Positions 13,080 through 29,692 of a stretch of DNA of 64,000 nucleotides are shown one piece after another. Source of the stretch: Roseivirga sp. (GTDB taxonomy: Bacteria; Bacteroidota; Bacteroidia; Cytophagales; Cyclobacteriaceae); the NCBI GenBank assembly GCA_021404565.1, contig JAAWWF010000006.1:248001-312000 (forward strand), written 5' to 3'. A program made the position numbers and the translations under genes. Below the pieces are notes generated by a model. It ran no database searches. It was not told the origin of the DNA and saw nothing but the letters and a program-made list of their open reading frames with translations. Position 1 is the stretch's first letter. Each line of letters opens with the position of its first letter.

Positions 13080-14591
13080 TTAATAGGTTCCTCTGTAACC
13101 GTAGTCATGGCGGGCTCCTTTCCCGTCTGTTTTTAGAGGAATGGCCAAACCACCCGTCTTATCCAGCCAGGTGAAAAGGTCGGCTCTCAGTTGCTTGATC
13201 AGGTCCTGATGCTCCGGGCTTCTGATCAGGTTGTTCATTTCCATAGGATCATTTTCCAGGTCGTAAAGCTCGTTAATGTCCCAAATGCCATAGTAGCGGA
13301 TAAACTTGTATTTGTCGGTACGAACAGCATGGACGGTTGGTGTTTGTGGAAAAGGCCTTTCCCAGAAATACTCGTAGTAAATTCGCTCCCGCCATTCAGG
13401 GGTTTCTCCCTTGAGCATGGGGTAGAAGGACTCTCCATCCATGTTCTTTGGTTTTTTGAGACCTGCCATATCCAGAATGGTCGGGCCAATGTCTATATTC
13501 TGAATCATCTGCTTCACTTTGGCAGATTTAATCACGTCTTTTCCGCCATAAACCAGCAGAGGAACCCTGATAGACTCTTCATAGGCATGTCGTTTATCGA
13601 TCAAACCATGTTCCCCAAAGGAAAAACCATTATCCCCCATATAGAAGACCAGTGTGTTGTCCAATTGACCACTCTCTTCCAACCGGGCCAGCACTTTGCC
13701 AATGCTCTCATCAATGGAGAGCAGAGTTTCTGTATAGCGCTGGTAAAATTCATCGAATTTAATGGTGTTGTGGTACATGTAATCCACTCCATGCCAGCTA
13801 TAGCGTTGGTTTTTTACCCAATTGGGTACATCTTCATAGTTGTAATCGGGGTTCTTATTTTCAGGAAACATCGTGAGCGGATAGCTCGGCTCATTGGTTT
13901 CATATTCTCCCTGGTGGCGTTTGGCCGGGTAAAACTCAGCATGCACTCCTTTATGCGACAAATAGGCAAAAAAGGGCTTGTCAGGGTCTCTTTGCCCAAG
14001 CCAGTCCGTAGCTTCTTCAGTGAGCAAGTCTGTCACATAGGTGCTGTCATGGTAGGCTATTTCTTTGCCGTTGATGTTGAGGGTGGGGTTATAGTATTGA
14101 CCTTGCCCCCGAAAACTTACCCAATGGTCAAAACCCGGTCGCGGATCGGCATGATGTTCACCCATATGCCATTTGCCGAAAAAGGCTGTTTCGTAACCTG
14201 CTGCCTGCAGGTATTCTGGAAAGAATGTAGAAGTGTCTGAGACCAAGGATTGATTGTCGATGACCTGATGACGGTGCGAGAACTGTCCGGTAAGAATGGA
14301 AGCACGGCTTGGAGAACAAAGTGAGGTGGTAACAAAAGCATTTTGAATATGAGAGCCCTCCAGGGCCATTTTATCCATATTCGGAGTTTTAAGAAAGGGC
14401 ACCTTACCCGTAAAACCCATAAAATCATACCGATGGTCATCGCTGAGTATGAAAACCACATTCATGGGTTTGGCATCAGCCTTTTTTTCCAGGACCAGTC
14501 TGGTGGTTGCATCATCTGTCTGCTCAGCGAGTGTACAACCGAGGGCTGAAAGTGAGAGGAGTATCAGCAGTTTGAGGTTAATTTTATTCAT
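13080..14591 (-). CDS. Class I (S1) sulfatase, exported
   Basis: A 503-residue formylglycine-dependent sulfatase. The maturation motif CSPSRASILTG places the residue converted to formylglycine at Cys92. Metal-binding Asp51-Asp52 (ILSDDHRYDF) and the later GDNGFSFGEHG motif are present. The N-terminus is a signal peptide ending SALGC, a likely lipobox (Cys19). Such enzymes remove sulfate esters from polysaccharides in the periplasm or on the surface. It follows the GH3 gene by 13 bases and ends the operon before a terminator. No sulfatase-maturing enzyme is encoded in the window. Its presence suggests the target glycan is sulfated. Confidence 0.92.
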   Translation of the reverse strand: MNKINLKLLILLSLSALGCTLAEQTDDATTRLVLEKKADAKPMNVVFILSDDHRYDFMGFTGKVPFLKTPNMDKMALEGSHIQNAFVTTSLCSPSRASILTGQFSHRHQVIDNQSLVSDTSTFFPEYLQAAGYETAFFGKWHMGEHHADPRPGFDHWVSFRGQGQYYNPTLNINGKEIAYHDSTYVTDLLTEEATDWLGQRDPDKPFFAYLSHKGVHAEFYPAKRHQGEYETNEPSYPLTMFPENKNPDYNYEDVPNWVKNQRYSWHGVDYMYHNTIKFDEFYQRYTETLLSIDESIGKVLARLEESGQLDNTLVFYMGDNGFSFGEHGLIDKRHAYEESIRVPLLVYGGKDVIKSAKVKQMIQNIDIGPTILDMAGLKKPKNMDGESFYPMLKGETPEWRERIYYEYFWERPFPQTPTVHAVRTDKYKFIRYYGIWDINELYDLENDPMEMNNLIRSPEHQDLIKQLRADLFTWLDKTGGLAIPLKTDGKGARHDYGYRGTY

Positions 14592-14604: not shown

Positions 14605-16857
14605 TTATTTGAGCGAAAACTTAGCAGATACTCCTTTTGCTGAACTGGTACCTACAAATACTTCGAATGCTCCCGGTTCAGCCTTATGAGACATATCCCG
14701 GGTATAGAATGCCAAATCATTGGAAGAAATACTGAAAGTCACTTTTCGGCTTTCTCCGGCCTTGATGGCGACCTTCTGAAAGCCCTTGAGCTCTTTGACC
14801 GGTCGGGTAACGCTGCCTACCAAATCTCTTATGTAGAGCTGTACAATCTCTTTCCCATCGTGCTTGCCCCTGTTTTTGATATTGACAGAAAGACTAAGTG
14901 TCTCATTTTGAGTCATTTCTTTCTTGTTCATACTTATCTCTGAATAGGAAAAATCACTATAACCAAGGCCGTGGCCAAAGGGATATAATGGTTCGTTGGC
15001 CACATCGATATATTTGCTTGTGTACTTGTTTTTAGCGTCAAAAGGCCTGCCGGTATTTTTCATATTGTAGTAAATGGGAATCTGGCCTGCATTTCTCGGA
15101 AAGGTCATGGTGAGCTTACCAGATGGGTTATGATCTCCAAAGAGTACCTCAGCTATCGCTTTTCCGGCCATCGTGCCGAGGTGCCAGGTATTGAGAATAG
15201 CGGGAATGTTTTGATCTGACCACTCTAGCGTGATAGGTCTGCCTGCCATTACCAAAAGTACCACGGGTTTTCCAAGCGCATGGATTTGCCTGAGCAATTC
15301 CAGTTGATTGGCAGGTAAACCTATTTCCGATCGACTGGCAGCTTCTCCGCTTTGCTGGTAATTTTCACCCAAGGCCATGACTACCACATCTGACTTTCTG
15401 GCGGCCTGGAGTGCTTTTGCAAAGCCAGAGCTTCCACTACCCTGAAAGGACACACCGCGCGCGTAATTGATGCTGACATCGGGAGCAACTTCCTGAATGC
15501 CTTTAAGCAGGGTGATGGCTTTGGATTCATCTCCGGCCACATGCCAGGTACCCAACATATCCTTTTGGTTATCGGCTAATGGACCGATGAGGGCAATGGA
15601 TTTCGTTGATTTGGAGAGAGGGAGGACAGGGCCTCCTTTTATGTTTTCATTTTTTAGCAATACGATGGATTCTTTAGCCAGTTCCAAAGCATGGTCCATC
15701 AATTCTTTGGAAAAGAGCGTTTCTTTTTCCCGATCGGCATTGAGGTAGCGATAGGGGTCTTCAAATAATCCAAGGCGGTATTTCATTTCCAGTACGCGTC
15801 TTACATAAGCATCAAGTCTGGATTCTTCGATTTGGCCCTCTTTGATGAGTTCGGGAATGTACTTACTGTAAACACCTCCCTGCATGTCCATTTCCACTCC
15901 GGCATTAAAGGCGAGGGCTGCCGCTTCCTTGTTATTGGCGACTACACCATGCGGTACCATTTCATTGATGGCAGTGTAGTCTGTTACTACAAAGCCATCA
16001 AAGCCCCATTCGTCTCTTAGAATTTCAGTCATCAGGTAGTGGTTTCCAGAGGCAGGCAGGCCATCCAACTCGTTAAAAGAAGTCATAACGGTAGTGGCCC
16101 CGGCATCCAGTGCTGCCTTAAAGGGAGGTAGATAGGTTTCCCTTAAAACGCGGTCTGACAGGTCTACCGTATGATAGTCACGACCAGCCTGGGCTGCTCC
16201 ATAAGCAGCAAAGTGCTTGACGCATGCCATAACGGTGGCATGATGTGAAAGATCTGTTCCCTGGTAGCCTCTTACTTTGGCAGCAGCCATAAGACTGCCC
16301 AGGTATACGTCTTCACCGGTTCCCTCAGCTACCCGACCCCAGCGAGGGTCACGGGCTATATCGACCATGGGATTATACGTCCAGTTGATGCCGGCAGAAG
16401 ATGCTTCTTTGGCAGAGAGCCTTGCTGTTTTTTCGATCAGTGCCAAATCCCAGCTGGCAGCTTCTGCCAGTGGAATAGGGAAGGTAGTTTTATAACCATG
16501 AATTACATCCAGCCCAAAGAGCAATGGGATACCAAGGCGTGTTTCTTCTACGGCTATTTTCTGAAGTTTGATCGCGTAATCGACTGTATGCGCGTTGAAC
16601 AGGTTGCCGGCCCTGCCAGCTTTTAATTCCTCCACATAGTCATCGCGAAGCTGAGGGCCTGTAACCGTCCATCCGCTGGTATAGAGTGTCAGTTGCCCCG
16701 CTTTTTCCTCAATGGTCATTTCATTGATCAATGAATCAATGAAGACACCCATTTCGTCATTCACAGTTTTTTTATCATTGCTACTGGCAGCGAGCGTAAG
16801 AGCCAGTAGTAAAATGAAGAGGGAGTAGCCTGCGTATTTTAGCCTGTTTTTTTTCAT
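14605..16857 (-). CDS. GH3 family beta-glucosidase
   Basis: 750 residues with a signal peptide (about 1-25). The GH3 N-terminal barrel carries KHFAAYG (214-220) and the nucleophile Asp293 in GFVVTDYTA. The second domain runs to about 600, and a fibronectin III-like domain ends the protein (about 665-740, REVFVG-type strands GAFEVFVGTSSA). GH3 enzymes of this layout release glucose from beta-linked gluco-oligosaccharides in the periplasm. In the operon it follows the esterase by 11 bases and precedes the sulfatase by 13. With the two upstream PF10091 enzymes it would complete breakdown of imported glucan fragments. Confidence 0.93.
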   Translation of the reverse strand: MKKNRLKYAGYSLFILLLALTLAASSNDKKTVNDEMGVFIDSLINEMTIEEKAGQLTLYTSGWTVTGPQLRDDYVEELKAGRAGNLFNAHTVDYAIKLQKIAVEETRLGIPLLFGLDVIHGYKTTFPIPLAEAASWDLALIEKTARLSAKEASSAGINWTYNPMVDIARDPRWGRVAEGTGEDVYLGSLMAAAKVRGYQGTDLSHHATVMACVKHFAAYGAAQAGRDYHTVDLSDRVLRETYLPPFKAALDAGATTVMTSFNELDGLPASGNHYLMTEILRDEWGFDGFVVTDYTAINEMVPHGVVANNKEAAALAFNAGVEMDMQGGVYSKYIPELIKEGQIEESRLDAYVRRVLEMKYRLGLFEDPYRYLNADREKETLFSKELMDHALELAKESIVLLKNENIKGGPVLPLSKSTKSIALIGPLADNQKDMLGTWHVAGDESKAITLLKGIQEVAPDVSINYARGVSFQGSGSSGFAKALQAARKSDVVVMALGENYQQSGEAASRSEIGLPANQLELLRQIHALGKPVVLLVMAGRPITLEWSDQNIPAILNTWHLGTMAGKAIAEVLFGDHNPSGKLTMTFPRNAGQIPIYYNMKNTGRPFDAKNKYTSKYIDVANEPLYPFGHGLGYSDFSYSEISMNKKEMTQNETLSLSVNIKNRGKHDGKEIVQLYIRDLVGSVTRPVKELKGFQKVAIKAGESRKVTFSISSNDLAFYTRDMSHKAEPGAFEVFVGTSSAKGVSAKFSLK

Positions 16858-16868
16858 TGTGCGGACCT

Positions 16869-17657
16869 TTATTTGCTTTGTGAGAATAGCCAGGAAAGGA
16901 ACTCCGGCTCGGCAAAGGCTTTGTCCCAGCTGTTGTGGTTTGCGTTGGGATACAATGAGAACTTCGCATTTCCACCCTGAGCCTTGATCGCTTCTACCAT
17001 TTGCTCAGAAAATTTCGAAGGGACCACATTATCCCTGGCACCATGAAAAACCCAGAAGGGCAATCTCGTGGCATAGATTCCTGCACTTTTAGGGTTATCT
17101 CCACCGCAAATGGGCATGGCTGCAGCAAAGGTCTTTGGCCTTCGACTTACCAGTTCAAAGGTACCCATGCCTCCCATAGAAAGCCCCGATATATAGATGC
17201 GATTGTTATCAACATAGGTGAGATCGACCAGTGAATCGATGAGAGAAAGAGCTCCTTTCATTGCTTTAGTAGGCTTTCCCTTCTTGGCAAAGATGAAATC
17301 TCTTTTACCTGTAAGTTCATTTACCTCACGGCTCACATTGGCCCAATAATCACCGGGCGGACATTGGGGGAAAACGACTATGGCAGGATACTTCTGACGG
17401 TTTTCGGTATCAAGAAATAGCTTGCTCCCATGGATCAGTTGCTTTGCATTGTCGGTACCCCGTTCACCTGCCCCGTGCAGAAAATAGACAAGGGGATATT
17501 TCTGGCTCCTGTCAAAGTTTTCCGGATAAAGTACCCTGTATAGAAGCGTTCCTTGTTTGAAAGTGTGCTCCCTTTTTTCGAAAGCAGATTTATCCTGTGC
17601 GTTAAGCTGATCTGTGGTGAAAAATATGACCAGGGAAAGGGCAATGAGTCTATTCAT
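16869..17657 (-). CDS. Secreted alpha/beta-hydrolase esterase (CE1/dienelactone-hydrolase-like)
   Basis: 262 residues with a signal peptide ending LNAQ (about 1-21). The catalytic triad can be placed: Ser160 in GLSMGG, Asp209 in HGARDN and His241 in NANHNSWD. The N-terminal strand YFLHGAGERG supplies the oxyanion hole. The layout matches predicted feruloyl/acetyl esterases and small prolyl-oligopeptidase relatives in polysaccharide loci. Its start overlaps the preceding glucanase stop by 8 bases, so translation is coupled. A role in removing ester substituents from the glycan is likely but not proven. Confidence 0.87.
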   Translation of the reverse strand: MNRLIALSLVIFFTTDQLNAQDKSAFEKREHTFKQGTLLYRVLYPENFDRSQKYPLVYFLHGAGERGTDNAKQLIHGSKLFLDTENRQKYPAIVVFPQCPPGDYWANVSREVNELTGKRDFIFAKKGKPTKAMKGALSLIDSLVDLTYVDNNRIYISGLSMGGMGTFELVSRRPKTFAAAMPICGGDNPKSAGIYATRLPFWVFHGARDNVVPSKFSEQMVEAIKAQGGNAKFSLYPNANHNSWDKAFAEPEFLSWLFSQSK

Positions 17658-18996
17658 AGCTGAATCCGAGTTTTTTCAGGCCTTTCTGAATTTCGGGAGC
17701 TGACATAAAAAGCTCCCAGATGAGGCCGGTACGATAATTTTCGATCATGACCGGGATGGGCCCCTGGTCAATGGCCAGGTAACGTGGGAGTAGCCAATTG
17801 TTTTCGTGACTGAAAGCATCATAGGGGCCATATTTGCCTACCAGGCTATCCGCTTCGGTATAGAGATATTTGAGCATGGCCATGCTTTCTTCAGGCGTAT
17901 AAGGAAAGGAAGAGAGTGCTGCGGTAGGTGAGATTACCCCCAGATCACGGTCAGGTCTGTGGCCTGCATAACCTCTCATAGAGTAGCTGGAGGTAAGCCC
18001 CCAGGTTTTCGGGCCGTAACCCTTGTAGTTGTTCGGGTTTTCTACACTGTGTTTGTAGTGGATTCTGGCGTGATTCTGATTCAGCTTCCAATAGTCCGCA
18101 TACTTGTCTTTAAGTCCTTGAGGATTAAGACCGAGGTATGAATAGTGAGCCCAGAAAAGCGGACCTACCGGGGAGTCATCAGTTTCAAAGTGATTGACCA
18201 CGGTTTCCAAACCATAATAGGTAGTGTCTTCGGCAATGATGCCTCCACGTGCCCAACCTTTATCGTACACTGACGGTTCGATGGAATGAGTAGGGGAGGA
18301 AGCGGCCAGCACATACATGATCAGACATTCATTGTAACCCCTGACATCAAAGTTCATTTCCCAGCCATAATTAGGCGACCAGTGCCAATAAAGTACATCC
18401 TGACCTTGTGTATGCCAATCAAACTCTATGTTTTGCCAGAGTGTGTTGATGCGCTCTGCCAGGGCTTTTTCCTCTGAATTGCTTTTATTCAGGTACTGTC
18501 GAACTGTGAGAAGGCCGGCTGCCATGAAGGAGGTTTCCACCAGGTCACCCCCATCGTCTTTCTGACTGAATGCCTGTACTTTGGCGGTAGGACCAAACCA
18601 CCAGTGAGGCCATACACCGTGGAAGGTATCTGCTTTTTCCAGGAAGCTTACGATTTTCTCCAGGCGTTGTATTCCTTGTTTTCTGGTGATAAAACCTCTT
18701 TCAATACCAACTATCAGGGCCATAACTCCAAAACCACTACCACCGGAGGTAACAATGTCTTTGTCATGAGATGGATAGATATCGTCAGTATGAAAGCGCT
18801 CGCGGGCCATGCCGCTGGTCGGTTCGGCACCGTCCCAGAAGTACTGGAAAGTCTGGTATTGTACCAGGTTCAACAAGGAGTCTTCAGAAATCTGTTGTTG
18901 ACTTCCTTGTTTGCTGGTTGATCCTTCTGACTGACTACATGAGCTGGTTATGTAGCAAATCAGGAGTAATTGAATCAGTAATGTTGTTGTTCTCAT
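17650..18996 (-). CDS. PF10091 glucanase lipoprotein (GH144-like)
   Basis: 448 residues from the ATG at 18996; the open frame extends to a GTG at 19020 that gives a poorer signal peptide. Lipobox ITSSC lies near residue 19. The protein matches the glycoamylase-like (PF10091) alpha/alpha-barrel family, with the conserved blocks YFWDGAEPTSGMARER, TSGGSGFGVMAL, FHGVWPHWW, DDGGDLVETSFMAAGLL and PFLAIDQGPIPVMIENYRTG-like IDQGPIPVMIENYRTG. Known Bacteroidota members classed as GH144 are endo-beta-1,2-glucanases. The conserved acidic residues around DGGDLVET are present. It is the second of two such enzymes in the operon. Confidence 0.85.
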   Translation of the reverse strand: MRTTTLLIQLLLICYITSSCSQSEGSTSKQGSQQQISEDSLLNLVQYQTFQYFWDGAEPTSGMARERFHTDDIYPSHDKDIVTSGGSGFGVMALIVGIERGFITRKQGIQRLEKIVSFLEKADTFHGVWPHWWFGPTAKVQAFSQKDDGGDLVETSFMAAGLLTVRQYLNKSNSEEKALAERINTLWQNIEFDWHTQGQDVLYWHWSPNYGWEMNFDVRGYNECLIMYVLAASSPTHSIEPSVYDKGWARGGIIAEDTTYYGLETVVNHFETDDSPVGPLFWAHYSYLGLNPQGLKDKYADYWKLNQNHARIHYKHSVENPNNYKGYGPKTWGLTSSYSMRGYAGHRPDRDLGVISPTAALSSFPYTPEESMAMLKYLYTEADSLVGKYGPYDAFSHENNWLLPRYLAIDQGPIPVMIENYRTGLIWELFMSAPEIQKGLKKLGFSYE

Positions 18997-19091
18997 CGCT
19001 TTATTTCTGTTTGGTCCCACTGTTTCTGTCCTAAAAAGGGAGAGATACGGGATTTAATGTCGTTTAGGTCAATTTCTCAGTTTTCGTTTTA

Positions 19092-21080
19092 TTAGTAGGA
19101 AGTGAATCCTAGTTTATCAAGCCCATCGGTTACTTCGGTATTCTGCATAAAAAGGTCCCAAAGCAAGGCTGTCCTGTGATTTTCAATCATAAGAATGATG
19201 GGGCCCTGGTCTATGGCCAGGTATGAACCGGCTACCCATTCCTCAGTCAGATTAAAGGCATCGTAAAATCCATAGTCTCCCCAGAGCTTATCTCCCAGAA
19301 GATAGTAAAAGTGCTTTATAGCATTCATAGACTCTTCGGGTGTATAGGGGATAGAAGAGATGGCAGCCGTTGGGGTAATGACCCCTAAATCGTTATTGGG
19401 AGAGTGTGCTGAGTAGCCAAGGTGGTTATCACTGGCGGTAAGGCCCCAGCAGTCACCGGTATAACCTACATAGTTGAGCGGGTTGGCCTGGCAATAAGAC
19501 TGATTGATGGTACTATGTGCTGTGTTTTGAGTCCAGTAGGAGGCATATTGATCAACAAGATCGCGTGGATCGAGGCCAAGAAAAGAGTAATGGCTAAAGA
19601 ACAGGGGGCCTCCGCGGTCTGAGCCTAGGGGCAATGCTGTATTGTAGAAGCTTCCTCCATTAGTCATGGCACCATCCCTGGCCCAGCCTTCATGATATAC
19701 AGCAGGTGAGATGGGGTGGGTGGGAGAAGCCGCTGCCAGCGCGTAAACAATCAAAGACTCGTTCCATCCTCTGATTTTCAGGCTGATTTGCCAGCCAAGG
19801 TCAGGAGACCAGTGCCAGTAGAGTACATTTTCGCCACCTTTGGTATACCAGTCCCATTCCACTTCTTGCCAAAGTTGGGTGATGTTGGAAATAATGGAGG
19901 CTTCCTGCGGATTGCTGTTGTCGAGATACTGTCTCACAGTGAGCAGTCCCTGAACCATGAATGCGGTTTCGACCAAATCTCCACCATTGTCGCTCGCGCT
20001 AAAAGGGATCACCTCACCGGTACTGCCATTGATCCAATGAGGCCAGACTCCATGAAAACGATCTGCACTTTTAAGGAAGTTGACAATGGTTTGCATACGT
20101 TCCATGCCTTGTACACGGGTGATAAATCCTCTTTCTATGCCCACCAGAATGCTCATTATCCCAAAGCCGGATCCGCCCGTGGTAACAGTTTCATTTGAGG
20201 TATTGCGTTCGCGGGCCATGCCACTGATGGGGTGAGCGAAGTCCCAGAAGTACTTAAAGGTTTGCTCCTGAATTTTCGTCAGCAAAGCTTCTTCAGAGAT
20301 TTCGGGAAATTTAGGAGTGGGATCAATTTCAGTATAGAATTCCAGAGAATAGCCATCAAAACTGCCCCCCTCTGTGCTTTTCAAGGCATTGGAAAGATCC
20401 AGGGTGTATTTTTTGATAAATGCCAGGTTCGTGGTGGATCTGGCCAAAATGGTTCTGTTGTTGTCTGAAGGCGTGATGCTGAAACTAACACCCGGTAGGC
20501 TCAACGCCTGCTCAAAGGAGGAAATATCAACGGATGTCGAAAAACTGAATGTTGCGGCAAAATCTGTTGCAATGTTCTGAGCCCGGCTACCGTTGGTGAC
20601 ATCCTGGTCTCCAATGGTAACAGAGAGAATCTCCAACTCATTGGCCTGAGTTTTGAAATTAAAAGAAAAGGGGAGGAGCACGGATCCTGCAGCACTTTTG
20701 AGAACCTCGTTGAGAACAATGGTATAAGTAGTGTTTTCCAAGAGTGTGCCTGCCGTGGAAATGGAGGCAGTAGTGTTTTGGGCTGAGAGCGAGATGGATG
20801 CATTCACCACCTGACTGTTGGCCCGAAGTGTAATCCCTGTTTCGACTGTGCCGGCATCCAGGGCCTCAGAGAATATCAGGTTGATCGTGCGGTCTACGGG
20901 AATGTCCTCCGTATCAGCACCTTCCAGGTTGAGTTGAATGGAGCCTGCAAAGGCACTTTTAAGTTCGAAAGTATCTATACCCGGGTCATCTGAACCACAG
21001 GCTGAGAGCATAAAGAGTAAAAAGACCAGGGGCGCTTTCCAGATCACGAATCTGTCGGTTTTATTTTGAAGGATAGTCAC
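19092..21080 (-). CDS. PF10091 glucanase with two N-terminal Ig-like (Big_5) domains
   Basis: 662 residues starting at a GTG; no in-frame ATG gives a signal peptide. Lipobox MLSAC lies near residue 28. Residues about 40-150 and 155-255 look like two Ig-like Big_5 domains (PVDRTINLIFSEALDAGTVE is typical). The catalytic PF10091 domain fills about 265-660 with the same blocks as its neighbour (FAHPISGMARER, FHGVWPHW, DNGGDLVETAFMVQGLL). The Ig-like spacer probably holds the enzyme away from the outer membrane, making it the surface endo-acting partner, while the shorter neighbour may work in the periplasm. That division is inference. Confidence 0.86.
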   Translation of the reverse strand: MTILQNKTDRFVIWKAPLVFLLFMLSACGSDDPGIDTFELKSAFAGSIQLNLEGADTEDIPVDRTINLIFSEALDAGTVETGITLRANSQVVNASISLSAQNTTASISTAGTLLENTTYTIVLNEVLKSAAGSVLLPFSFNFKTQANELEILSVTIGDQDVTNGSRAQNIATDFAATFSFSTSVDISSFEQALSLPGVSFSITPSDNNRTILARSTTNLAFIKKYTLDLSNALKSTEGGSFDGYSLEFYTEIDPTPKFPEISEEALLTKIQEQTFKYFWDFAHPISGMARERNTSNETVTTGGSGFGIMSILVGIERGFITRVQGMERMQTIVNFLKSADRFHGVWPHWINGSTGEVIPFSASDNGGDLVETAFMVQGLLTVRQYLDNSNPQEASIISNITQLWQEVEWDWYTKGGENVLYWHWSPDLGWQISLKIRGWNESLIVYALAAASPTHPISPAVYHEGWARDGAMTNGGSFYNTALPLGSDRGGPLFFSHYSFLGLDPRDLVDQYASYWTQNTAHSTINQSYCQANPLNYVGYTGDCWGLTASDNHLGYSAHSPNNDLGVITPTAAISSIPYTPEESMNAIKHFYYLLGDKLWGDYGFYDAFNLTEEWVAGSYLAIDQGPIILMIENHRTALLWDLFMQNTEVTDGLDKLGFTSY

Positions 21081-21171: not shown

Positions 21172-22944
21172 TTATCTGGCTGCTTTAATTGCCTGTACCT
21201 CAGTGAGGGTTAAGGCCTTATCAAAGATGCGTAGTTCGTCTATGAAACTATTGTCAGATTTATGATTCCAACCTGTAAATCGCGGGGCTCCGGAGCCAAT
21301 AGAAATGATATCGCAATCGGTCCAGTCAACTCCCGGAAAGGTATTGGTTGAAACGACTGCCCCATCAATGTAGACAGTAGCTTCAGTGCCGGAAATAGCG
21401 ATGGTCATATGTACCCAATCTGTAGCTGTGGCAGGATCGAGATCGGCTGCAGCTCCCCCGTCAAACCAGTTGTCACCGGCACCATTGCCCACATTGAGTT
21501 TGAACCTTTGGTTGCCTCCTGCATTTTCGCGAAAAAAACGGAAGCCGCTGGTACGAACGTTTTGTGCATCGGGGTTAGCGCCATCCGGTGGCCCTATGAC
21601 CAGGATACCTGCCCGATCGGGATCGTTGTCCATTTTGTACCAGAAAGAGGCACTGAACTCGTTGTTTTCCAGAGCAGATGAAGGGAAGGTGAGGTATGAA
21701 TCAGAAGCACCCGAATAAGCATTTGCACCTCTGAGACCTTCACCGGCAAAACCGGGTGTGCCGACCTGTGTGGCACTTGCTCCTGAAGATTGTTCTGTAT
21801 AATCGCCATCAAAGGGCATATAGAAGATCTCACCGAATTCGGGCTGGAAACCTACGGTACCGCCCTCATCTACAATAATGTTGCGCACCTCCTGTTGGGT
21901 AAGGGCTTTATTGAAAAGTCTCAGCTCATCCATAAAGCTCTCGTCAGATCGGTGATTCCAGCCAAAAAAGCGAGGTTCACCAGACATGATAGAAATGATA
22001 TCGCAATTGGTCCAGTCTACCCCGGGAAAATCGCCTTGCCTTACTATGTCACCATTGATATAGACGGTGGCCTGCGTACCGGAAATGGTGAAAGACATGT
22101 GTACCCATTCATCCTGAGTCGGGTCAACATCTGCCAGAGCTCCACCGTCAAACCAGTTATCTCCGCCTCCATTGCCCACGTTGAGTTTAAAGCGTTGCAT
22201 ACCACCGGCATTTTCACGGAAGAATCTGAAACCACTCGTTCTGTTGTTTTGGCTATCAGGGTTTGCTACATCCGGAGGTCCTATTACCAATGTGCCCGCA
22301 CGGTCAGGAGTGGCATTGACTTTCATCCAAAAAGCGGCACTGAATTCTGTTCCCAACAAACCAGTGGTGGGAAAAGTGAGGTATGAGCCATTTGCTCCAG
22401 CATAAGCGTTACCCCCCACTTTGCCTTCGCCTGCATAACCAGGACTGCCGACTACGGTAGGACGGGTAACACTTACTAATTCAATGTTATCACCGTCAAA
22501 GGGCATATAGAATATCTCACCATCGTACTTCTTGACATAGGGGGGCGTCTTCGAGAAGTTCACACTTTCCGAAGTTGTTTTACCCTCAATATCCGTAGCA
22601 TTAATGGTCAGTATATGATCGCCATCGGTTAGGCCATCATATTCATATTCTTCTACAGCTCTGCGGTAATCCTTGAAATTGCTGAAGTTGGTCAACTCTG
22701 ACCCATCGAGTATCAGAGAGATCGATTGCACTTCAATGTCATCTGTAACCTCGAATTTAATATTGATTGTAGTAACTGTTTCAAATACCTGGATGGCAGT
22801 GCCCTCCACAGGATAGATGATGGTGACCACGGGGGAAGAAGCATCTGCCCCCGGATCGACCGCTGTAATCTCGTCTATATATCCTTCATCGCAACCGACT
22901 GCAATCAGAAAGGTGAAGGCTACTAATAATCTTAATATTTTCAT
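21172..22944 (-). CDS. Surface lipoprotein with tandem LamG/concanavalin-like domains
   Basis: 590 residues; lipobox IAVGC gives Cys18. An Ig-like domain (about 40-130, PVVTIIYPVEGTAI) is followed by two LamG domains (about 140-360 and 370-590), each starting EIFYMPFDGD and containing GFRFFRENAGG, RFKLNVGNG and a C-terminal SFxDELRxFxKALT strand. The two LamG copies are close duplicates. Placed directly after SusD, it fits the slot of a surface glycan-binding protein (SusE/F-like). No catalytic residues are evident, although LamG folds can be enzymes. Confidence 0.85.
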   Translation of the reverse strand: MKILRLLVAFTFLIAVGCDEGYIDEITAVDPGADASSPVVTIIYPVEGTAIQVFETVTTINIKFEVTDDIEVQSISLILDGSELTNFSNFKDYRRAVEEYEYDGLTDGDHILTINATDIEGKTTSESVNFSKTPPYVKKYDGEIFYMPFDGDNIELVSVTRPTVVGSPGYAGEGKVGGNAYAGANGSYLTFPTTGLLGTEFSAAFWMKVNATPDRAGTLVIGPPDVANPDSQNNRTSGFRFFRENAGGMQRFKLNVGNGGGDNWFDGGALADVDPTQDEWVHMSFTISGTQATVYINGDIVRQGDFPGVDWTNCDIISIMSGEPRFFGWNHRSDESFMDELRLFNKALTQQEVRNIIVDEGGTVGFQPEFGEIFYMPFDGDYTEQSSGASATQVGTPGFAGEGLRGANAYSGASDSYLTFPSSALENNEFSASFWYKMDNDPDRAGILVIGPPDGANPDAQNVRTSGFRFFRENAGGNQRFKLNVGNGAGDNWFDGGAAADLDPATATDWVHMTIAISGTEATVYIDGAVVSTNTFPGVDWTDCDIISIGSGAPRFTGWNHKSDNSFIDELRIFDKALTLTEVQAIKAAR

Positions 22945-22955
22945 TTTGCTGTCTG

Positions 22956-24506
22956 TTAATTGTTAGTACCTAGTTGGGGCAGGATGTCTATCTGAGCAAG
23001 CGGATAGGGGATAAAGCGATCTTCCGCTGCATAGCTTCTGCCTCCGTAATTCAATTCTGAGCCACGATCGTATCGTACGAGGTCATAGAACCGGATGCCC
23101 CATTCCATACCAAACTCGGCAAACTTCTCATCGAGCACATTGTCGAGACTGACACCGTTGAGTGGTGCCATACCGGCCCTTGCTCGCACCTCATTCACTG
23201 CCTGATCGGCTGTCATGGCAGCACTATTGGCTCCATTGGCCAGAGCCTCAGCATGCATAAGTAAAACCTCTGCATAGCGGATGACTATGAAGTTTTTATT
23301 GGTGCCATAGGCTGTCCTGCCGGGAGTCAGCTGATTGGAAGGCAGATAATGCTTACCGCTGGAAAAAACAGCTCTTGGATTAGGTTCATCATCAGTACGG
23401 CCAATAATATCTCCGTCACGAGTGGTATTAGAGACAAAGGCCGGCAGTGTAGCATAAGCAGGGTCTGATTGAATCAGCTCAATACCTTGCCTGGTGAACA
23501 ACACACTCGTCTCCAGGCGAACCGTTTCACTGCGATCGAGCATAAACTTGATAAACTTCATGCTGGGTTCCCAAAAACCCCATCCGCCACTGGAGCCCGC
23601 TACCACGGGTGTCCAGTTATTGGGGCCAAAAAAGGCATGCAGATAGGCCTCGTTTTCACCAGAACTTTGACCGAAATCTGAGTACTGAAGCTCCAACAGG
23701 TTTTCGCTGCTGAGCTTGCCGGGAATCTTAAAGAGTTCGTAAAAGTCTGATTCCAGGGTAAAGGCTCCTGAACCGATGATTTCTCCGGTGGCATCAGCTA
23801 CTTTCTGGAAGTCTTTCAAATCGAGATTGGCTTGAGCTTTTACAGCTAATGCGGTATAGCGGGTAATACCGCCTTTGATATCCGTTCTTTGGTTGGGCCT
23901 TACAGTAGGTAAAAAAGCCAAAGCTTCATCCATTTGATCAGAAATGTGTTGTAGCACTTCTTCCCTCGTAGAAACAGGAGTGTTATAGAGTTCCTGGGTC
24001 TGTGAGCTGGAAGGAATGAGGACAGCCCCCCAAAGCTTTGCCAGTTGTAGCATTTCAAAGGCCCTCATTACCTTGATTTCAGCGATATACTGATCGGCTT
24101 CAGCAGGGTTGGGTGCAAACTCTTTGTATCGCTCCAGCTCTTCCATAGAGGCGTGAAACTTGATGATATCATCATAGAAGTTTAGCCAGGTGGAGTTGTA
24201 CATCCAGAAAGAACGATCATAGCGATATTCATCAGTTTCGGTCAATGGAAACTGATCTCCTGCTGCATTCACATCATCACCTCTCACTGATACCACAGGG
24301 AAGGTTTCCCATTGCAATGCATAGAGTAGTTCGTAGGCTCCTGTAAGTAAGGGGTACATGTTTTCACTGAGGGTGTAGTCGGTATCTTCTACCAATACCT
24401 CATTTTCCAGGGGCTCATCAAGTGCGTTGTCACATGATACTGGAAAGATAGCTACCAGTATCAGGGCCATTAAGCTTGCAAAAAACTTTATTGGTTTCTT
24501 CGTCAT
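22956..24506 (-). CDS. SusD/RagB-family starch-binding-like outer membrane lipoprotein
   Basis: 516 residues starting MTKKPIKFF; an ATG four codons upstream (24518), one base after the susC stop, is an alternative. Lipobox PVSC lies near residue 25. SusD features: TPR-like helices throughout, FEMLQLAKLWGAVLIP, YTALAVKAQANLDLKDFQK, NKNFIVIRYAEVLLMHAEAL and the C-terminal EFGMEWGIRFYDLVR. SusD proteins cap the SusC channel and bind the target glycan at the cell surface. It is in the usual SusC-SusD order and translationally close to susC. Confidence 0.95.
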   Translation of the reverse strand: MTKKPIKFFASLMALILVAIFPVSCDNALDEPLENEVLVEDTDYTLSENMYPLLTGAYELLYALQWETFPVVSVRGDDVNAAGDQFPLTETDEYRYDRSFWMYNSTWLNFYDDIIKFHASMEELERYKEFAPNPAEADQYIAEIKVMRAFEMLQLAKLWGAVLIPSSSQTQELYNTPVSTREEVLQHISDQMDEALAFLPTVRPNQRTDIKGGITRYTALAVKAQANLDLKDFQKVADATGEIIGSGAFTLESDFYELFKIPGKLSSENLLELQYSDFGQSSGENEAYLHAFFGPNNWTPVVAGSSGGWGFWEPSMKFIKFMLDRSETVRLETSVLFTRQGIELIQSDPAYATLPAFVSNTTRDGDIIGRTDDEPNPRAVFSSGKHYLPSNQLTPGRTAYGTNKNFIVIRYAEVLLMHAEALANGANSAAMTADQAVNEVRARAGMAPLNGVSLDNVLDEKFAEFGMEWGIRFYDLVRYDRGSELNYGGRSYAAEDRFIPYPLAQIDILPQLGTNN

Positions 24507-24519
24507 GACATTTATCATC

Positions 24520-27500
24520 TTAAAACTTCATATTTAAACCGAGTGTGTATACTGCAGGAATCGGGTAGGTCTGCCTGTCTATTCCGCTGGCTACTTCTGG
24601 CGTAAAGCCATTGTAATTGAAGAAGGTGAGCGGTCTTTCTGCGGTGAACGTGATCCTGGTGTCTGGCATCTTTGTACCGAGTATTTCCTTATCTGTGAGA
24701 TTGTAGGAAATGCGTATGTTCTGTACCCTGAAATAAGAACCGTCTTCCACGAAATAATCGCTCATGCTCTGATTCCAGCCTTTTCTGAGGCCTGCTGCTG
24801 AAGGGTACTTGTTAGAGGTACCTTCGCCAGTCCAGAGATTGGTGGCCAGTTCAGCGTCAAGGTTCGTGTCTGTTGTGAAAATAATCTCACCTCTTTTTCT
24901 GTTGAGAATGCTATGTCCTTTCTGTCCCTGAAAGTTGGCTGAAAAGTCGATATTTTTGTAGCTCACATTCAGATTGAATCCATAAGTCACATCAGGAAGG
25001 TATGAGCCGAGTACGACCCGATCCTGGTCGTCAATTACGCCATCACCATTCTGATCTTTGTATATGAAATCTCCCGGTTCAATGCCCGCATCAGTGATAA
25101 ACTCTGAGGTATAGCCACTGTTGGTGATTTCCGCCTGGTTTTGGAAAACACCCTGGGTCTCATAGCCAAAAAAGGCTTGTAAAGGCTGTCCGACAATGGA
25201 ACGCTGACGGAATTCAGCGGAGCCACCATCGAGGTACTGTGGTCCGCCAAGGCTTAGCACTTCATTATTGAGTGTACCAAAGTTGCCACCTACGCTGTAT
25301 GACCAGTTACTGTCGATATTGTCTGACCAGTCAAGGGCCATTTCAAAACCTGAATTTCTGATACCTGCTACTGAGCGTCTTACATTGTTTCTGATCAGTG
25401 GAAGAATGATGGTGACGGCTGCGTTTTCGGTATCTCTCACGAAATAATCTGCTTCCATGGAGAGTCTGTTGTCAAACATTCTGGAGCTCATCCCAACATT
25501 AACCTCTTCGGTGGTTTCCCAACGGTCTACAAAGTCGAAAGTCGGAATAACAACACTACCGGGCACGCGTTGATTGTCAATGGCTAAAAACCTCTGATCT
25601 ATGGTGGGTGCTCCGACTGCAGCCCTTACGCCATCATTGCCCAATTGTCCCCAACCGCCCCTGATTTTAAGGAAATCGACATTGGGAAGGTTAAAGAAGC
25701 TCTCCTGGGACAATACCCATCCGGCACCCAGTGTAAAAAAGTTACCCCATTTTTCCTGGAACTTATTCGTGCCATCTCTTCTGAAAGTACCATAAAGGAG
25801 GTAGCGGTCATCGTAGTTATAGGCCAGACGTGTGAAATAAGAGCTTCCGAAAATTTCACTACCGTAATCTCCTGTGGCACCTTCATCGATACCACCACTG
25901 GCCAGGGCAATGTACCAGAGCTCTTCCATGCCTCGGTCCGGGGCCGGAAATAGCTCCGTTCCTCTGGCAAAAAGGCCCTCATTAGTTTCACTGCGATAGG
26001 AGTAACCCAAAACAGCGGTGAGACTATGCAGTCCCATGCTCTCTGTGTAGGTCAGGTAGTTATCCCAGATCTGATCATAGGAGGTGGCGTGATTTCTGCT
26101 CACAGATGACTGGAAGTCAGTGATGCCATCACTGTATTCGAAATCTACATTGCGCTGATTGAAGCTTGAGAAAGAATAGTTGTATGCTGATTTGAACTTG
26201 AGTTTCTGAGGGATGAGGTCATACTCGAAATGGAAATTTGCGAGGAACTTGCCGATTTTGTTTCGATTGTCATCATACAACAGGTCATAAAAAGGGTTTT
26301 GAGAACCTCTATAGCCTAATACCTGGGCATTGGAGAGTCCGAAAGGGATGGCTGCTGTGTTCTGATCGTCATAAACAGGCAGAATAGGTACAGCAAAGTA
26401 GGTTTTGAACCATACTGCATTCTCTGCGCTGAACTGTGTTGCATTACTGATATTGATATTGCCACCTATGGTGAGGAGATCAGAAATGTCAAAGTCCAGT
26501 TTAGTCCTGAAATTCAGTCGTTCGTACTCGTTGCGGGTTTCTTTCAAAAGACCATCCTGTTTGAAATAGCTCACACCGACAGAGTAGCGGGTGTCACTAT
26601 TGCCACCCTGCACTGAGATGGAGTGGTTTTGCATAGGTCCTGTTTGCAGCACCTGATCGTACCAGTCGGTATTTACATTGGGTATATTGGGATCAACCCT
26701 GCTTCTGCCAAAACGCTGAAATGCATTTTGAATAAAAGAGGCATCAGCGGCTGAACCTGTAGCCAGGGCGTACTCGGTAAACTGTTGTGAATTAGCAAGC
26801 TTGAGTACGTTTTGAGCCACCTGAACACCATAGTAGCCATCATAAATGACTTTTGGGGCCTGGTTGTATCCACCTTGTTTGGTTTGAATCAGGACCACAC
26901 CGTTTGAGGCACGTACTCCGTAAATGGCTGCTGCAGCTGCGTCTTTGAGGATAGAAATACTTTCGATATCGGAAGTATTTAAAAAATCGATATTATCAAA
27001 GAACATACCGTCTACGACATAAAGGGGGGATACATTTCCTTCCAACGAGCCAACTCCCCGGATGCGGACGGTAGGGGCGGCACCTGGTGCTCCGCTGCTT
27101 ACAATCTGCACTCCCGGTACCTTGCCCTGAAGCGATTGCATGGCTTGTGCTGCAGGTGTTTTTACTATGTCTTCAGATTTGACAGTGGCGATAGCAGAGG
27201 TCAGGTCCTTCTGCTGCTGTGTTCCATAACCAATTACCACGACCTCCCCCAGAAGGCTGACATCCGGTGCCATAGTGATATTGATAATGCCCCGGTTACC
27301 AACCTGGGTTTCTTGCGTGACATATCCCACAAAGGAGAATGCCAATACTATATCGCCTGCTGGTATTTCCAGTCGATAGGTACCATCGGCTCCTGTAGAG
27401 GTTCCCTGGAGTGTACTCTTTATAAGAATACTCACCCCGGGCAGTGGTTGACCATCGTCCGATGATCGGACGGTACCCGTCACTACAGTTTGCGCACTTG

Positions 27501-27570
27501 CACTGACGGCAAGTACACATAAAAGCAGAACGGACAGTACAGTAAAGTACGAACGTAGAGTTTTTTTCAT
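24520..27570 (-). CDS. SusC/RagA-family TonB-dependent outer membrane transporter
   Basis: 1016 residues with a signal peptide (about 1-27, ending ASAQ), a carboxypeptidase-D-regulatory-like domain (about 28-105, VTGTVRSSDDGQPLPGVSIL), a plug domain (about 110-230, beginning EVVVIGYGTQQQKDLTSAI) and a beta-barrel running to the final aromatic residue (MKF). It imports oligosaccharides across the outer membrane with TonB energy. It is the first gene of the operon that continues through SusD, the LamG protein, two glucanases, esterase, GH3 and sulfatase. The 271 bases upstream separate it from the 7TM regulator on the same strand. Confidence 0.96.
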   Translation of the reverse strand: MKKTLRSYFTVLSVLLLCVLAVSASAQTVVTGTVRSSDDGQPLPGVSILIKSTLQGTSTGADGTYRLEIPAGDIVLAFSFVGYVTQETQVGNRGIINITMAPDVSLLGEVVVIGYGTQQQKDLTSAIATVKSEDIVKTPAAQAMQSLQGKVPGVQIVSSGAPGAAPTVRIRGVGSLEGNVSPLYVVDGMFFDNIDFLNTSDIESISILKDAAAAAIYGVRASNGVVLIQTKQGGYNQAPKVIYDGYYGVQVAQNVLKLANSQQFTEYALATGSAADASFIQNAFQRFGRSRVDPNIPNVNTDWYDQVLQTGPMQNHSISVQGGNSDTRYSVGVSYFKQDGLLKETRNEYERLNFRTKLDFDISDLLTIGGNINISNATQFSAENAVWFKTYFAVPILPVYDDQNTAAIPFGLSNAQVLGYRGSQNPFYDLLYDDNRNKIGKFLANFHFEYDLIPQKLKFKSAYNYSFSSFNQRNVDFEYSDGITDFQSSVSRNHATSYDQIWDNYLTYTESMGLHSLTAVLGYSYRSETNEGLFARGTELFPAPDRGMEELWYIALASGGIDEGATGDYGSEIFGSSYFTRLAYNYDDRYLLYGTFRRDGTNKFQEKWGNFFTLGAGWVLSQESFFNLPNVDFLKIRGGWGQLGNDGVRAAVGAPTIDQRFLAIDNQRVPGSVVIPTFDFVDRWETTEEVNVGMSSRMFDNRLSMEADYFVRDTENAAVTIILPLIRNNVRRSVAGIRNSGFEMALDWSDNIDSNWSYSVGGNFGTLNNEVLSLGGPQYLDGGSAEFRQRSIVGQPLQAFFGYETQGVFQNQAEITNSGYTSEFITDAGIEPGDFIYKDQNGDGVIDDQDRVVLGSYLPDVTYGFNLNVSYKNIDFSANFQGQKGHSILNRKRGEIIFTTDTNLDAELATNLWTGEGTSNKYPSAAGLRKGWNQSMSDYFVEDGSYFRVQNIRISYNLTDKEILGTKMPDTRITFTAERPLTFFNYNGFTPEVASGIDRQTYPIPAVYTLGLNMKF

Positions 27571-27641: not shown

Positions 27642-27772
27642 ATTGATGTATTATTGATGAAACAAATTTTGAAGTGGTTTTTCGCGATTTTTAGGCTGGA
27701 AACGCAATGTGAGAGAGTCTCTATTTTGCGCATTAATATCAAGGTAATTTGCCCAAATTGGCCGTTTTGGGC
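27642..27772 (-). promoter_or_regulatory. Candidate operator region upstream of susC
   Basis: The susC upstream gap holds two direct copies of ATTGATG (27642-27648 and 27653-27659) with an 11-base period, about one helix turn. It also holds a perfect 7-bp inverted repeat, GCCCAAA (27751-27757) / TTTGGGC (27766-27772), with an 8-base spacer. No T run follows the inverted repeat on the minus strand, so it is unlikely to be a terminator. I found no exact TAnnTTTG on the minus strand. Binding by the adjacent regulator is a guess. Confidence 0.35.
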
Positions 27773-27841
27773 TTGGTATCGTTTGCATATCCCTTTTTAA
27801 TAACAAGGGAAGGAAGATCGTGTGGATTTACGAGAAATTGG

Positions 27842-29692
27842 TCAGTTTAAATGACCACTAAAGAGGTTGTGAATGAGCACTGTAGATGAGCCGCCTTTTT
27901 CAGTATCGTATACCTTCTCAATTTTCTTTTTAAAATTCCAGACCGTATTTCTTCTCATATCCAACATTTCGGATAACTGATCCAGGGTATATTTTTTTTG
28001 ACGATTGTTGGTGATGTACAGAATGAAAAAGGCTTTCTCAATGGGGAACTTAATACCATGAAAAATAGTGTTGCTGGTTACTGATTCGTCATAGCCGCAC
28101 TTTGAGCACCTGCGATGGAATTTGACTCGTCCTTCGAGATACTTGTTGTTATGGCATTTCACACAGTGATAACCATTTCCCCATTTAACCTTCTCCAGAA
28201 ACAGGTAGCAAGTAGCCTGGTCAGGGAATATTTTGATGAACTGCTCAAGGCTCAGGTTCTTGTTGATAAGGCGGTCTTGAAGAATCTCTTTTACATTATT
28301 CTTCAGCTTCCAGTTGTCTAAGTCCAGCTTGGTGTTGATGCGATTAACCTCTTTCTTCTGCTCAATCAGCTGCAGGTTGGCTTCTGCCAGTTCCAGGTTT
28401 TTCTCTTCTATCTGTTTGGTGCGTTCCTTGATCTTTTCTTCAAGTTCCTTGTTCACCTTGTCTTTAAGCTCCGCGTTCTCCTGATGCTGATTAATAATCC
28501 GTTTCAGAGCACGATCCCGGTTATCCTTTAGGATTCGAACACGATCGCTCAGTGCAAAGGTCAGGAAGAGCATTTCAAGGATAAAACAGATGTGCAGACT
28601 GTAGTAAGAGAGTGTTACAAAAGGAATGATTGACAAATAGAGCAGGGCTTTTAACAAAAAGCCAAGAAAGAGAATGCCATAGGCTAAAACGAAGAATCGG
28701 GCAGGTTTGTATCCTTTCAGCCAGGTGTAGATACTTGTATAGAAAATCAGCGTTAGCGGCAGGATTTCGATATTCCGGTATTCGAACAGCTGATGGTCGA
28801 ACAGGAGGGTATAAACAAACAAGGCTGATCGAATGACGATCACAGCATCCAGCAGTTTGTCAAGTCGGGGAGCTTTGGTACCGGTGTTAAGAAAACGCTT
28901 TGAGAAAAGCAGCGACCAGAAGATCAGGAAAAAGAGTGCAATGCCATAGGCATACTGATTCCATTCAGGCCAGCCGGGCCAGAGATACTGAAATGCAGTA
29001 CCGTCTACGCACATGGCATATACACCGACACTGATGATGTAAAAGGTATAGAACAAATACTTCTGCTCCCTGATCGCGAAAAAGATAAGGATGTTGTAAA
29101 CCGAGATCACGAAGATCATTCCATAGAAGATGCCATATAAAAAATACTCGCTTAGCGCATAGCCGATAAACTCATTGACTGTGCGAATGGCGATTCGGAT
29201 GTCTGCATATGAGTGCGATTTGACCTTGAAGTAAAGGTTTTGTTGCCCGATGATTTCTGAATCTATCATCCATTCAAAGTTCTTGTGGACGAAGGGTTTT
29301 TGTCTGAAGTCGTAGGAGTCGCCTACCTGCTGAACCTCATAATCTCCATCTGAACTTGGAAAATAGGCCGTTATTTCATCAATGGTCTGGTCATAAAATT
29401 CGAGCATCCATTCTTTTTCCAGGTCACGGCCCACTAGTAAAGGCACTTTGACCCAATAGGTACACTTGACGCAATAGTCTTTGGGCTTATAGCTGGGATG
29501 TATGGAAAATCTCTTTTGGGATCCAACCACATCATGAAACTCCAATACTCCCGCGCTATCCACCAGAATGGGCAGGTCATGGAGAAAGAGCTCCACATCT
29601 TTGGCATCATCATCTATGAATACGCGCTCTCTTTCAGTTTGAAAAAGCACGGGGATCAACATAAAAAAAGCTATTGCCAGAGAGCGAATCAT
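27842..29692 (-). CDS. 7TM-DISM receptor fused to an IS1595-type zinc ribbon and HTH
   Basis: 616 residues. A signal peptide (about 1-18) is followed by an exported beta-rich domain of the 7TMR-DISMED2 type (about 25-170), then seven membrane helices (about 180-390, starting LYGIFYGMIFVISVYNILIF) and a long coiled coil (about 395-470, KELEEKIKERTKQIEEKNLE). There is no histidine kinase, GGDEF or LytTR domain. Instead residues 482-616 match the N-terminus of IS1595-family transposases: FPDQATCYLFLEKVKWGNGY, zinc-ribbon cysteines 510/513 and 529/532, TSNTIFHGIKFPIEKAF, and an HTH near 570-592 (LDQLSEMLDMRRNTVWNFKK). The DDE nuclease is absent. Its position directly upstream of susC, same strand, suggests it is the locus-specific transcription regulator acting from the membrane. 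Confidence 0.85.
   Translation of the reverse strand: MIRSLAIAFFMLIPVLFQTERERVFIDDDAKDVELFLHDLPILVDSAGVLEFHDVVGSQKRFSIHPSYKPKDYCVKCTYWVKVPLLVGRDLEKEWMLEFYDQTIDEITAYFPSSDGDYEVQQVGDSYDFRQKPFVHKNFEWMIDSEIIGQQNLYFKVKSHSYADIRIAIRTVNEFIGYALSEYFLYGIFYGMIFVISVYNILIFFAIREQKYLFYTFYIISVGVYAMCVDGTAFQYLWPGWPEWNQYAYGIALFFLIFWSLLFSKRFLNTGTKAPRLDKLLDAVIVIRSALFVYTLLFDHQLFEYRNIEILPLTLIFYTSIYTWLKGYKPARFFVLAYGILFLGFLLKALLYLSIIPFVTLSYYSLHICFILEMLFLTFALSDRVRILKDNRDRALKRIINQHQENAELKDKVNKELEEKIKERTKQIEEKNLELAEANLQLIEQKKEVNRINTKLDLDNWKLKNNVKEILQDRLINKNLSLEQFIKIFPDQATCYLFLEKVKWGNGYHCVKCHNNKYLEGRVKFHRRCSKCGYDESVTSNTIFHGIKFPIEKAFFILYITNNRQKKYTLDQLSEMLDMRRNTVWNFKKKIEKVYDTEKGGSSTVLIHNLFSGHLN

Follow-up and report, generated by a model that had tools for sequence, protein, structure and literature searches.

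What does a membrane receptor that ends in the DNA-binding part of a transposase do directly ahead of a susC gene? The question is raised by a 616-residue protein encoded in the window, by which we mean the whole 64,000-nucleotide stretch of Roseivirga sp. DNA analysed here. The original prediction took this protein for a one-component membrane regulator of a glycan locus, built around a captured IS1595-type transposase end. Comparative analysis of sequences supports that view, with DNA binding as its presumed mode of action: the protein is most likely a one-component regulator that sits in the membrane and controls a beta-1,2-glucan locus through a tandem operator. The case is built on the observed architecture of the protein, its kinship to transposases, the family-wide linkage to susC and GH144-type genes, a tandem element ahead of susC and the co-occurrence of that element with the receptor; from these we infer the DNA binding, the ligand, the dimerisation and the activation described below. 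The receptor gene and the segments it encodes are arranged as follows.

27842..29692, minus strand: receptor gene, 616 aa (signal peptide, DISMED2, 7TM, coiled coil, IS1595 zinc ribbon and HTH)
29186..29572, minus strand: DISMED2 sensor domain, residues 41-169 (Pfam E 6e-19)
28541..29149, minus strand: 7TMR-DISM_7TM membrane domain, residues 182-384 (Pfam E 2e-46)
28268..28540, minus strand: coiled coil continuing from TM7, residues 385-475 (model helix 365-453, then 461-476)
28091..28225, minus strand: IS1595-type zinc ribbon, residues 490-534, with Cys510/513/529/532 (PF12760)
27899..28051, minus strand: IS1595-type HTH, residues 548-598 (NF033547 partial match, profile-profile comparison and model)

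The open reading frame (27842-29692) starts with ATG, runs through 616 codons without a single internal stop and yields a protein that can be aligned over its full length with 54 relatives encoded in other genomes, so the union of its two halves results from neither a frameshift nor an assembly join, a reservation that the original prediction had attached to it. All three Pfam domains score above their curated cut-offs: PF07696 (DISMED2) with 68.8 bits (cut-off 22), PF07695 (the DISM seven-helix domain) with 159 bits (cut-off 29), and the zinc ribbon PF12760 at residues 490-534 with 29.1 bits (cut-off 25.4; E 1e-6). The AlphaFold2 model (mean pLDDT 81.6 for the full-length receptor and 78.5 for the tail) shows a beta-domain sensor and seven membrane helices, the last of which continues into the coiled coil, followed by the ribbon and HTH. 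The sensor, seven helices and coiled coil first read from the letters were thereby recovered. In the model, the sensor domain resembles the periplasmic domain of RetS (3jyb, 2xbz; Foldseek E 1.4e-5), and a Foldseek search with the tail gave no significant match among solved structures. Clusters of basic residues, read from the sequence, occupy the loops after helices 1, 3, 5 and 7, and this charge pattern would place the tail inside the cell, in the cytoplasm.

The receptor thus joins membrane helices and a DNA-binding-type domain in one chain, with neither kinase nor receiver. Pfam searches at E up to 1 returned no histidine kinase or receiver domain, and no sigma-70, FecR or AraC-type domain was matched. 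The regulators known from polysaccharide utilization loci (PULs), namely hybrid two-component systems, SusR and sigma/anti-sigma pairs, control a susCD locus by its glycan. They are marked by kinase, receiver, AraC-type, sigma or FecR domains, none of which occurs in the receptor, in line with its proposed distinctness from these three types. A hybrid two-component system was ruled out on the missing kinase and receiver, and an ECF sigma/anti-sigma pair on the missing sigma-70 and FecR domains.

RetS, LadS and SagS exemplify the 7TMR-DISM receptors. DISMED2 and the DISM seven helices are common to such receptors of the RetS type and to the protein studied here, but their output is a kinase, a cyclase or the like, whereas here it is a zinc ribbon and HTH. 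Transmembrane regulators such as CadC and ToxR likewise combine a membrane sensor with a DNA-binding domain of their own, and ChiS concerns chitin use. The closest published parallel, described from proteobacterial genomes, combines a 7TMR-DISM architecture and a C-terminal ChiS-family DNA-binding domain (PMC8092284); the general idea of a membrane receptor with a C-terminal DNA-binding domain thus exists, but that domain is by its description different from the tail studied here, and a transposase origin is not stated in the part of the paper available to us. In a survey of transmembrane regulators (PMC10269533), the main text, as far as it was available, contains neither ‘zinc’ nor ‘transposase’. 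The parts are hence known, and their combination, a DISM receptor with an IS1595-type tail, is a variant of transmembrane one-component regulators that we did not find in the full texts of open PMC papers.

The transposase kinship of the tail was supported from several sides. In addition to the PF12760 ribbon, the NCBIfam profile NF033547 (IS1595) matches residues 548-598 with its positions 3-54 of 215 (E 7e-4), placing an HTH directly after the ribbon; this match is partial, its 19.6 bits being far under the whole-protein cut-off of 75. Profile-profile comparison of 68 tails with nine IS1595-type proteins gave a probability of 100 and an E value of 5e-40, with an alignment that covers ribbon and HTH and stops ahead of the DDE domain; the nine proteins had themselves been found via the tail, and the Pfam and NF033547 matches are independent of that choice. 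The tail accordingly consists, as first proposed, of an IS1595 zinc ribbon and HTH without the DDE nuclease, PF12762 being absent by Pfam from all 616 residues. IS1595-family transposases (PF12760 plus PF12762) share the ribbon and HTH across the ordered part of the tail; the receptor differs from them in lacking the DDE domain and in being fused to a membrane receptor. A transposase identity was ruled out, as the tail terminates before PF12762 would begin.

We then asked how widely the tail occurs. It was matched in 44 of 99 related genomes; most strong matches fall in frames of ~600-700 aa, and most weak ones in frames of ~320 aa, among which Pfam identifies several transposases. A contig scan returned 365 stretches encoding a tail relative; among culturable Roseivirga, R. 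pacifica and R. spongicola have homologues. The best 80 of these 365 are all Bacteroidota by title, mostly Cytophagales, and every one (80/80) carries the DISM head. Pooling yielded 123 distinct receptors, two short frames of 421 aa (L084) and 412 aa (L085) included. Across an even sample of the phylum, the tail lies within a frame of 620-718 aa in 11 of 395 genomes, the head having been checked in 10 of the 11 (all but G479). The transposase-derived tail might invite the reading that the protein is a chance fusion or a decayed transposon remnant without function. We regard this as almost certainly wrong: there are 123 distinct receptors with intact frames, a conserved linkage, conservation across genera, and four ribbon cysteines (Cys510/513/529/532) that are invariant in 55 aligned full-length proteins.

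A tree of the tails, built from 90 of the 123 receptors and 18 tails of other proteins with the L110-L175 rows randomly thinned, unites the 90 receptor tails and one soluble protein in a single group (support 99/84), which joins the IS1595-type proteins (98/89). With its few columns (118) and midpoint root, the tree is consistent with, and does not prove, a single capture of an IS1595-type tail. One member of the receptor clade, L086 (9307-10017), has 236 aa and no membrane part, with its tail at residues 99-212; it is perhaps a truncated receptor. Separately, the related genome G258 holds 11 tail matches of near-equal score in frames of 306-339 aa. Four of these copies (L186-L189) have diverged to 71-84% where compared, and in the two that were aligned (L187 and L188) the first two Asp residues usual in a DDE domain are missing; the G258 copies may be domesticated transposase paralogues.

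A soluble clade member also bears on how the tail reaches DNA. With the same receptor and operator, the tail could be released by regulated proteolysis and act as a soluble factor, to which both L086 and the low model confidence just before the tail (452-469) would be congenial. Yet L086 may represent a truncated gene, and the alignment shows conserved residues in the coiled coil and just N-terminal to the ribbon; we therefore consider release unlikely and keep to a regulator that acts from the membrane.

The gene neighbourhood indicates what such a regulator might control. As the original prediction had noted, susC begins 271 bases past the receptor gene on the same strand of the window, and a run of glycan-utilization genes follows.

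24520..27570, minus strand: susC (Pfam)
22956..24518, minus strand: susD (Pfam)
21172..22944, minus strand: Big_7 + LamG protein (Pfam), probable surface glycan-binding protein by inferred role
19092..21080, minus strand: GH144-type enzyme (PF10091), matching the solved endo-beta-1,2-glucanase 5gzh (E 3e-154)
17650..19020, minus strand: GH144-type enzyme (PF10091), matching the same solved endo-beta-1,2-glucanase 5gzh (E 1.5e-183)
14605..16857, minus strand: GH3 glycosidase
13080..14591, minus strand: sulfatase, part of the same gene run, after GH3

The two GH144-type enzymes and the GH3 enzyme point to beta-1,2-glucan as the substrate of this locus. The sulfatase (13080-14591) is an observation of its own; in the part of PMC6499787 available to us, marine GH144 loci with an added sulfatase are linked to an unknown sulfated marine polysaccharide, and the gene fits that paper’s idea of a sulfated marine beta-1,2-glucan.

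The search for further fusions of 7TM-DISM and PF12760 beside susC, the obvious extension of the first reading, was productive. The next same-strand gene is susC in 77 of the 123 receptors (gap median 262 bp, range 106-488), a figure that gives no estimate of prevalence because 80 of the loci had been selected as the best among 365 tail relatives; for receptors taken from the relatives’ genomes only, susC is directly next in 18 of 46. Tail-less DISM proteins of the own genome and six related ones, in sharp contrast, are followed by susC in none of 33 cases. In the 8.57 Mb of the own genome there are only 7 SusD. Where at least 7.5 kb of downstream DNA was available, 68 of 71 receptor-susC loci contain PF10091 (GH144-type) genes. 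Within the genus, strong PF10091 matches occur in 6 of 19 genomes, exactly the six that carry the receptor; a seventh, G008, has one weak match in a 2915-aa frame. For 18 of the 123 receptors the next frame is convergent (in L145 and L140 only via short frames).

If the receptor controls susC from this position, the DNA between the two genes may carry its binding site. For four further receptors, susC lies no more than 600 bp away; a small frame intervenes in three of these cases, and the fourth is at a contig end. This brings the number of gaps to 81. Motif discovery in these gaps returned an 18-bp motif, M2 (about TGTTtTTaAagcGnaAAA), and a second motif, M1 (about GCAAACGTTTGC). In the window they lie as follows.

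27788..27805, minus strand: candidate operator copy 1 (M2), starting 235 bp ahead of the susC start
27775..27786, minus strand: M1 palindrome beside copy 1 (motif discovery)
27724..27741, minus strand: candidate operator copy 2 (M2), 64 bp from copy 1 and starting 171 bp ahead of the susC start

Counted with a model that had these very gaps as its training set, M2 has two or more plus-strand copies of at least 8 bits in 52 of the 81 gaps, one in 22 and no site in 7. Neighbouring copies are 64, 65 or 66 bp apart in 49 of 54 spacings, and sites of at least 9 bits point toward susC in 122 cases and the opposite way in 6. Models trained on one half of the gaps, with a seed taken from the whole set, found 20 pairs with the 64-66-bp spacing in 41 held-out gaps and 18 in 40 (4 and 3 at other spacings), and on 20-fold shuffles they found zero such pairs. 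When training started freely, the result was 17 pairs in 41 gaps for one half; for the other half the model settled on M1 and found no pair. A repeat test that uses no motif peaked at 64-66 bp as well (~26 of 81 gaps), the next spacing, 80 bp, occurring in 4.

The doublet is confined in its position. A doublet comes after the receptor at 49 of the 123 loci, and only 5 further doublets were found elsewhere in 2.13 Mb of receptor loci. None occurred in 632 kb of control DNA, which included the six other SusD loci of the own genome, and a strong M2 site lies upstream of the receptor gene in only 3 of 122 cases. In L140, where frames intervene between receptor and susC, the doublet sits at the susC frame. 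One of the five, a stray doublet (63 bp) in L072 that lies 6067 bp past the receptor, is without explanation.

The distance between the beginning of copy 2 and the susC start codon is 117-209 bp in 49 of the 50 doublets and 460 bp in the other. Such a position is more usual for activators. It speaks against a receptor that represses and is released by its ligand, and although a computational analysis does not decide between the two directions, we judge repression improbable and retain activation as the favoured direction.

M1 is a palindrome, which we take to be of the LacI-operator type. It often stands at fixed offsets to M2 copies and is also found upstream of susC in receptor-free loci (L205, L246, L260). 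It is probably the site of another regulator.

We next examined whether the element follows the receptor or the glucan locus. The comparison set comprised 20 stretches surrounding PF10091 genes outside the receptor-adjacent loci. Thirteen have susC but no adjacent receptor of this clade, 11 from receptor-free genomes and two from genomes with receptors of other clades (L256 and L258 among the thirteen are near-copies); two are an unlinked (G054) and a divergent (G021) case; and five (L245, L247, L249, L254 and L255) show no susC and were left out of the count. A doublet precedes susC in 43 of 69 receptor-adjacent GH144 loci, in sharp contrast to 0 of the 13 (Fisher p 1.8e-5), where the best single site reaches 11.4 bits (L248). 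At least one strong site (at least 12 bits) is found in 61 of the 69; by the chosen cut-off the full doublet is missing in 26, and 8 have no site of at least 12 bits.

The two exceptional arrangements are informative. In G054 the sole receptor is encoded ~0.5 Mb from the locus, and the doublet is still present (65 bp; 14.2 and 21.8 bits), with copy 2 ~150 bp ahead of the likely susC start as counted by hand. In G021 receptor and susC diverge, and the doublet that faces susC is weaker (10.0 and 10.9 bits).

Kinship among the loci was taken into account with a SusD tree of 60 of the 69 receptor-adjacent GH144 loci (L108, L131, L133, L138, L151, L153, L161, L198 and L200 omitted), the 13 loci without the clade, and the unlinked and divergent cases, the doublet of the latter (L257) being entered by hand. 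Loci without the receptor are interspersed with those that have it. Over 8 independent pairs on supported branches, a site of at least 12 bits tracks the receptor in 7.3 on average and the reverse in 0 (median p 0.016); for the stricter doublet trait the figures are 5.1 of 8 and 0 (median p 0.0625). Two SusD lineages that separate deep in the tree both include loci with the receptor and loci with doublets, as if receptor and operator had moved as a unit. One receptor-free GH144 locus, L241 (1943-4009), has sigma-factor and FecR genes just before susC, that is, a regulator of a known kind in the receptor’s place; this suggests regulator replacement in otherwise similar loci.

These comparisons also bear on a reading in which another transcription factor of the locus binds the doublet and the tail binds elsewhere or acts indirectly. 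The presence of M1 means that other factors could be at work at these promoters, and binding of the doublet by the receptor is our own deduction. But receptor-free GH144 loci lack the doublet, and it occurs where the receptor is unlinked or divergent, so that another factor would need to have been gained and lost together with the receptor, and we rate this reading as quite improbable, below both proteolytic release and repression.

The receptor itself thus remains the favoured partner of the doublet, a choice founded on susC adjacency set against the tail-less control, the tandem 18-bp element, the 0 of 13 doublets, their persistence with unlinked and divergent receptors, and the single tail clade. 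In the mechanism that we propose, the periplasmic DISMED2 domain would sense a breakdown product of beta-1,2-glucan, probably sophorose or a sulfated relative. The signal would pass through the seven helices and the coiled coil of TM7 to the cytoplasmic ribbon and HTH derived from an IS1595-type transposase. Receptors, presumably dimeric, would bind the two directly repeated 18-bp sites, whose 64-66-bp spacing would correspond to about six helical turns, with the nearer site starting ~120-210 bp upstream of susC. From the membrane, the receptor would most likely activate the susCD-GH144-GH3 operon.

Among receptors without susC within 600 bp, only 1 of 42 has a doublet. Together with the 18 convergent cases among the 123, this means that the model describes the GH144-linked clade but cannot yet be extended to the family as a whole. 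A wider scenario, to which we give somewhat better than an even chance, is that a 7TMR-DISM receptor acquired an IS1595-type DNA-binding end in a single event, which founded a class of transmembrane regulators of transcription. The receptor and its 64-66-bp operator would then have combined with different SusC/D lineages, while other clades gained other targets and perhaps other spacings; the two sites may be held together much as a transposase pairs the ends of its element.

The best-known examples of transposases domesticated into regulators are eukaryotic. Here, in a bacterial case, the DNA-binding end of a mobile element appears wired to a membrane receptor together with a candidate operator, which makes origin, ligand and mechanism testable. 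It gives beta-1,2-glucan loci a named probable regulator, and receptor and promoter would form a compact receptor-to-promoter module.

Two further observations concern the surroundings of the family. In L064 and L070, which belong to another receptor clade, direct repeats 80 bp apart follow the gene, perhaps another operator spacing. The own genome (G000) and G009 have assemblies of ~8.2-8.6 Mb with 13 and 11 DISM matches, respectively; the other listed congeners measure 2.1-5.8 Mb, with 0-6 DISM matches where searched.
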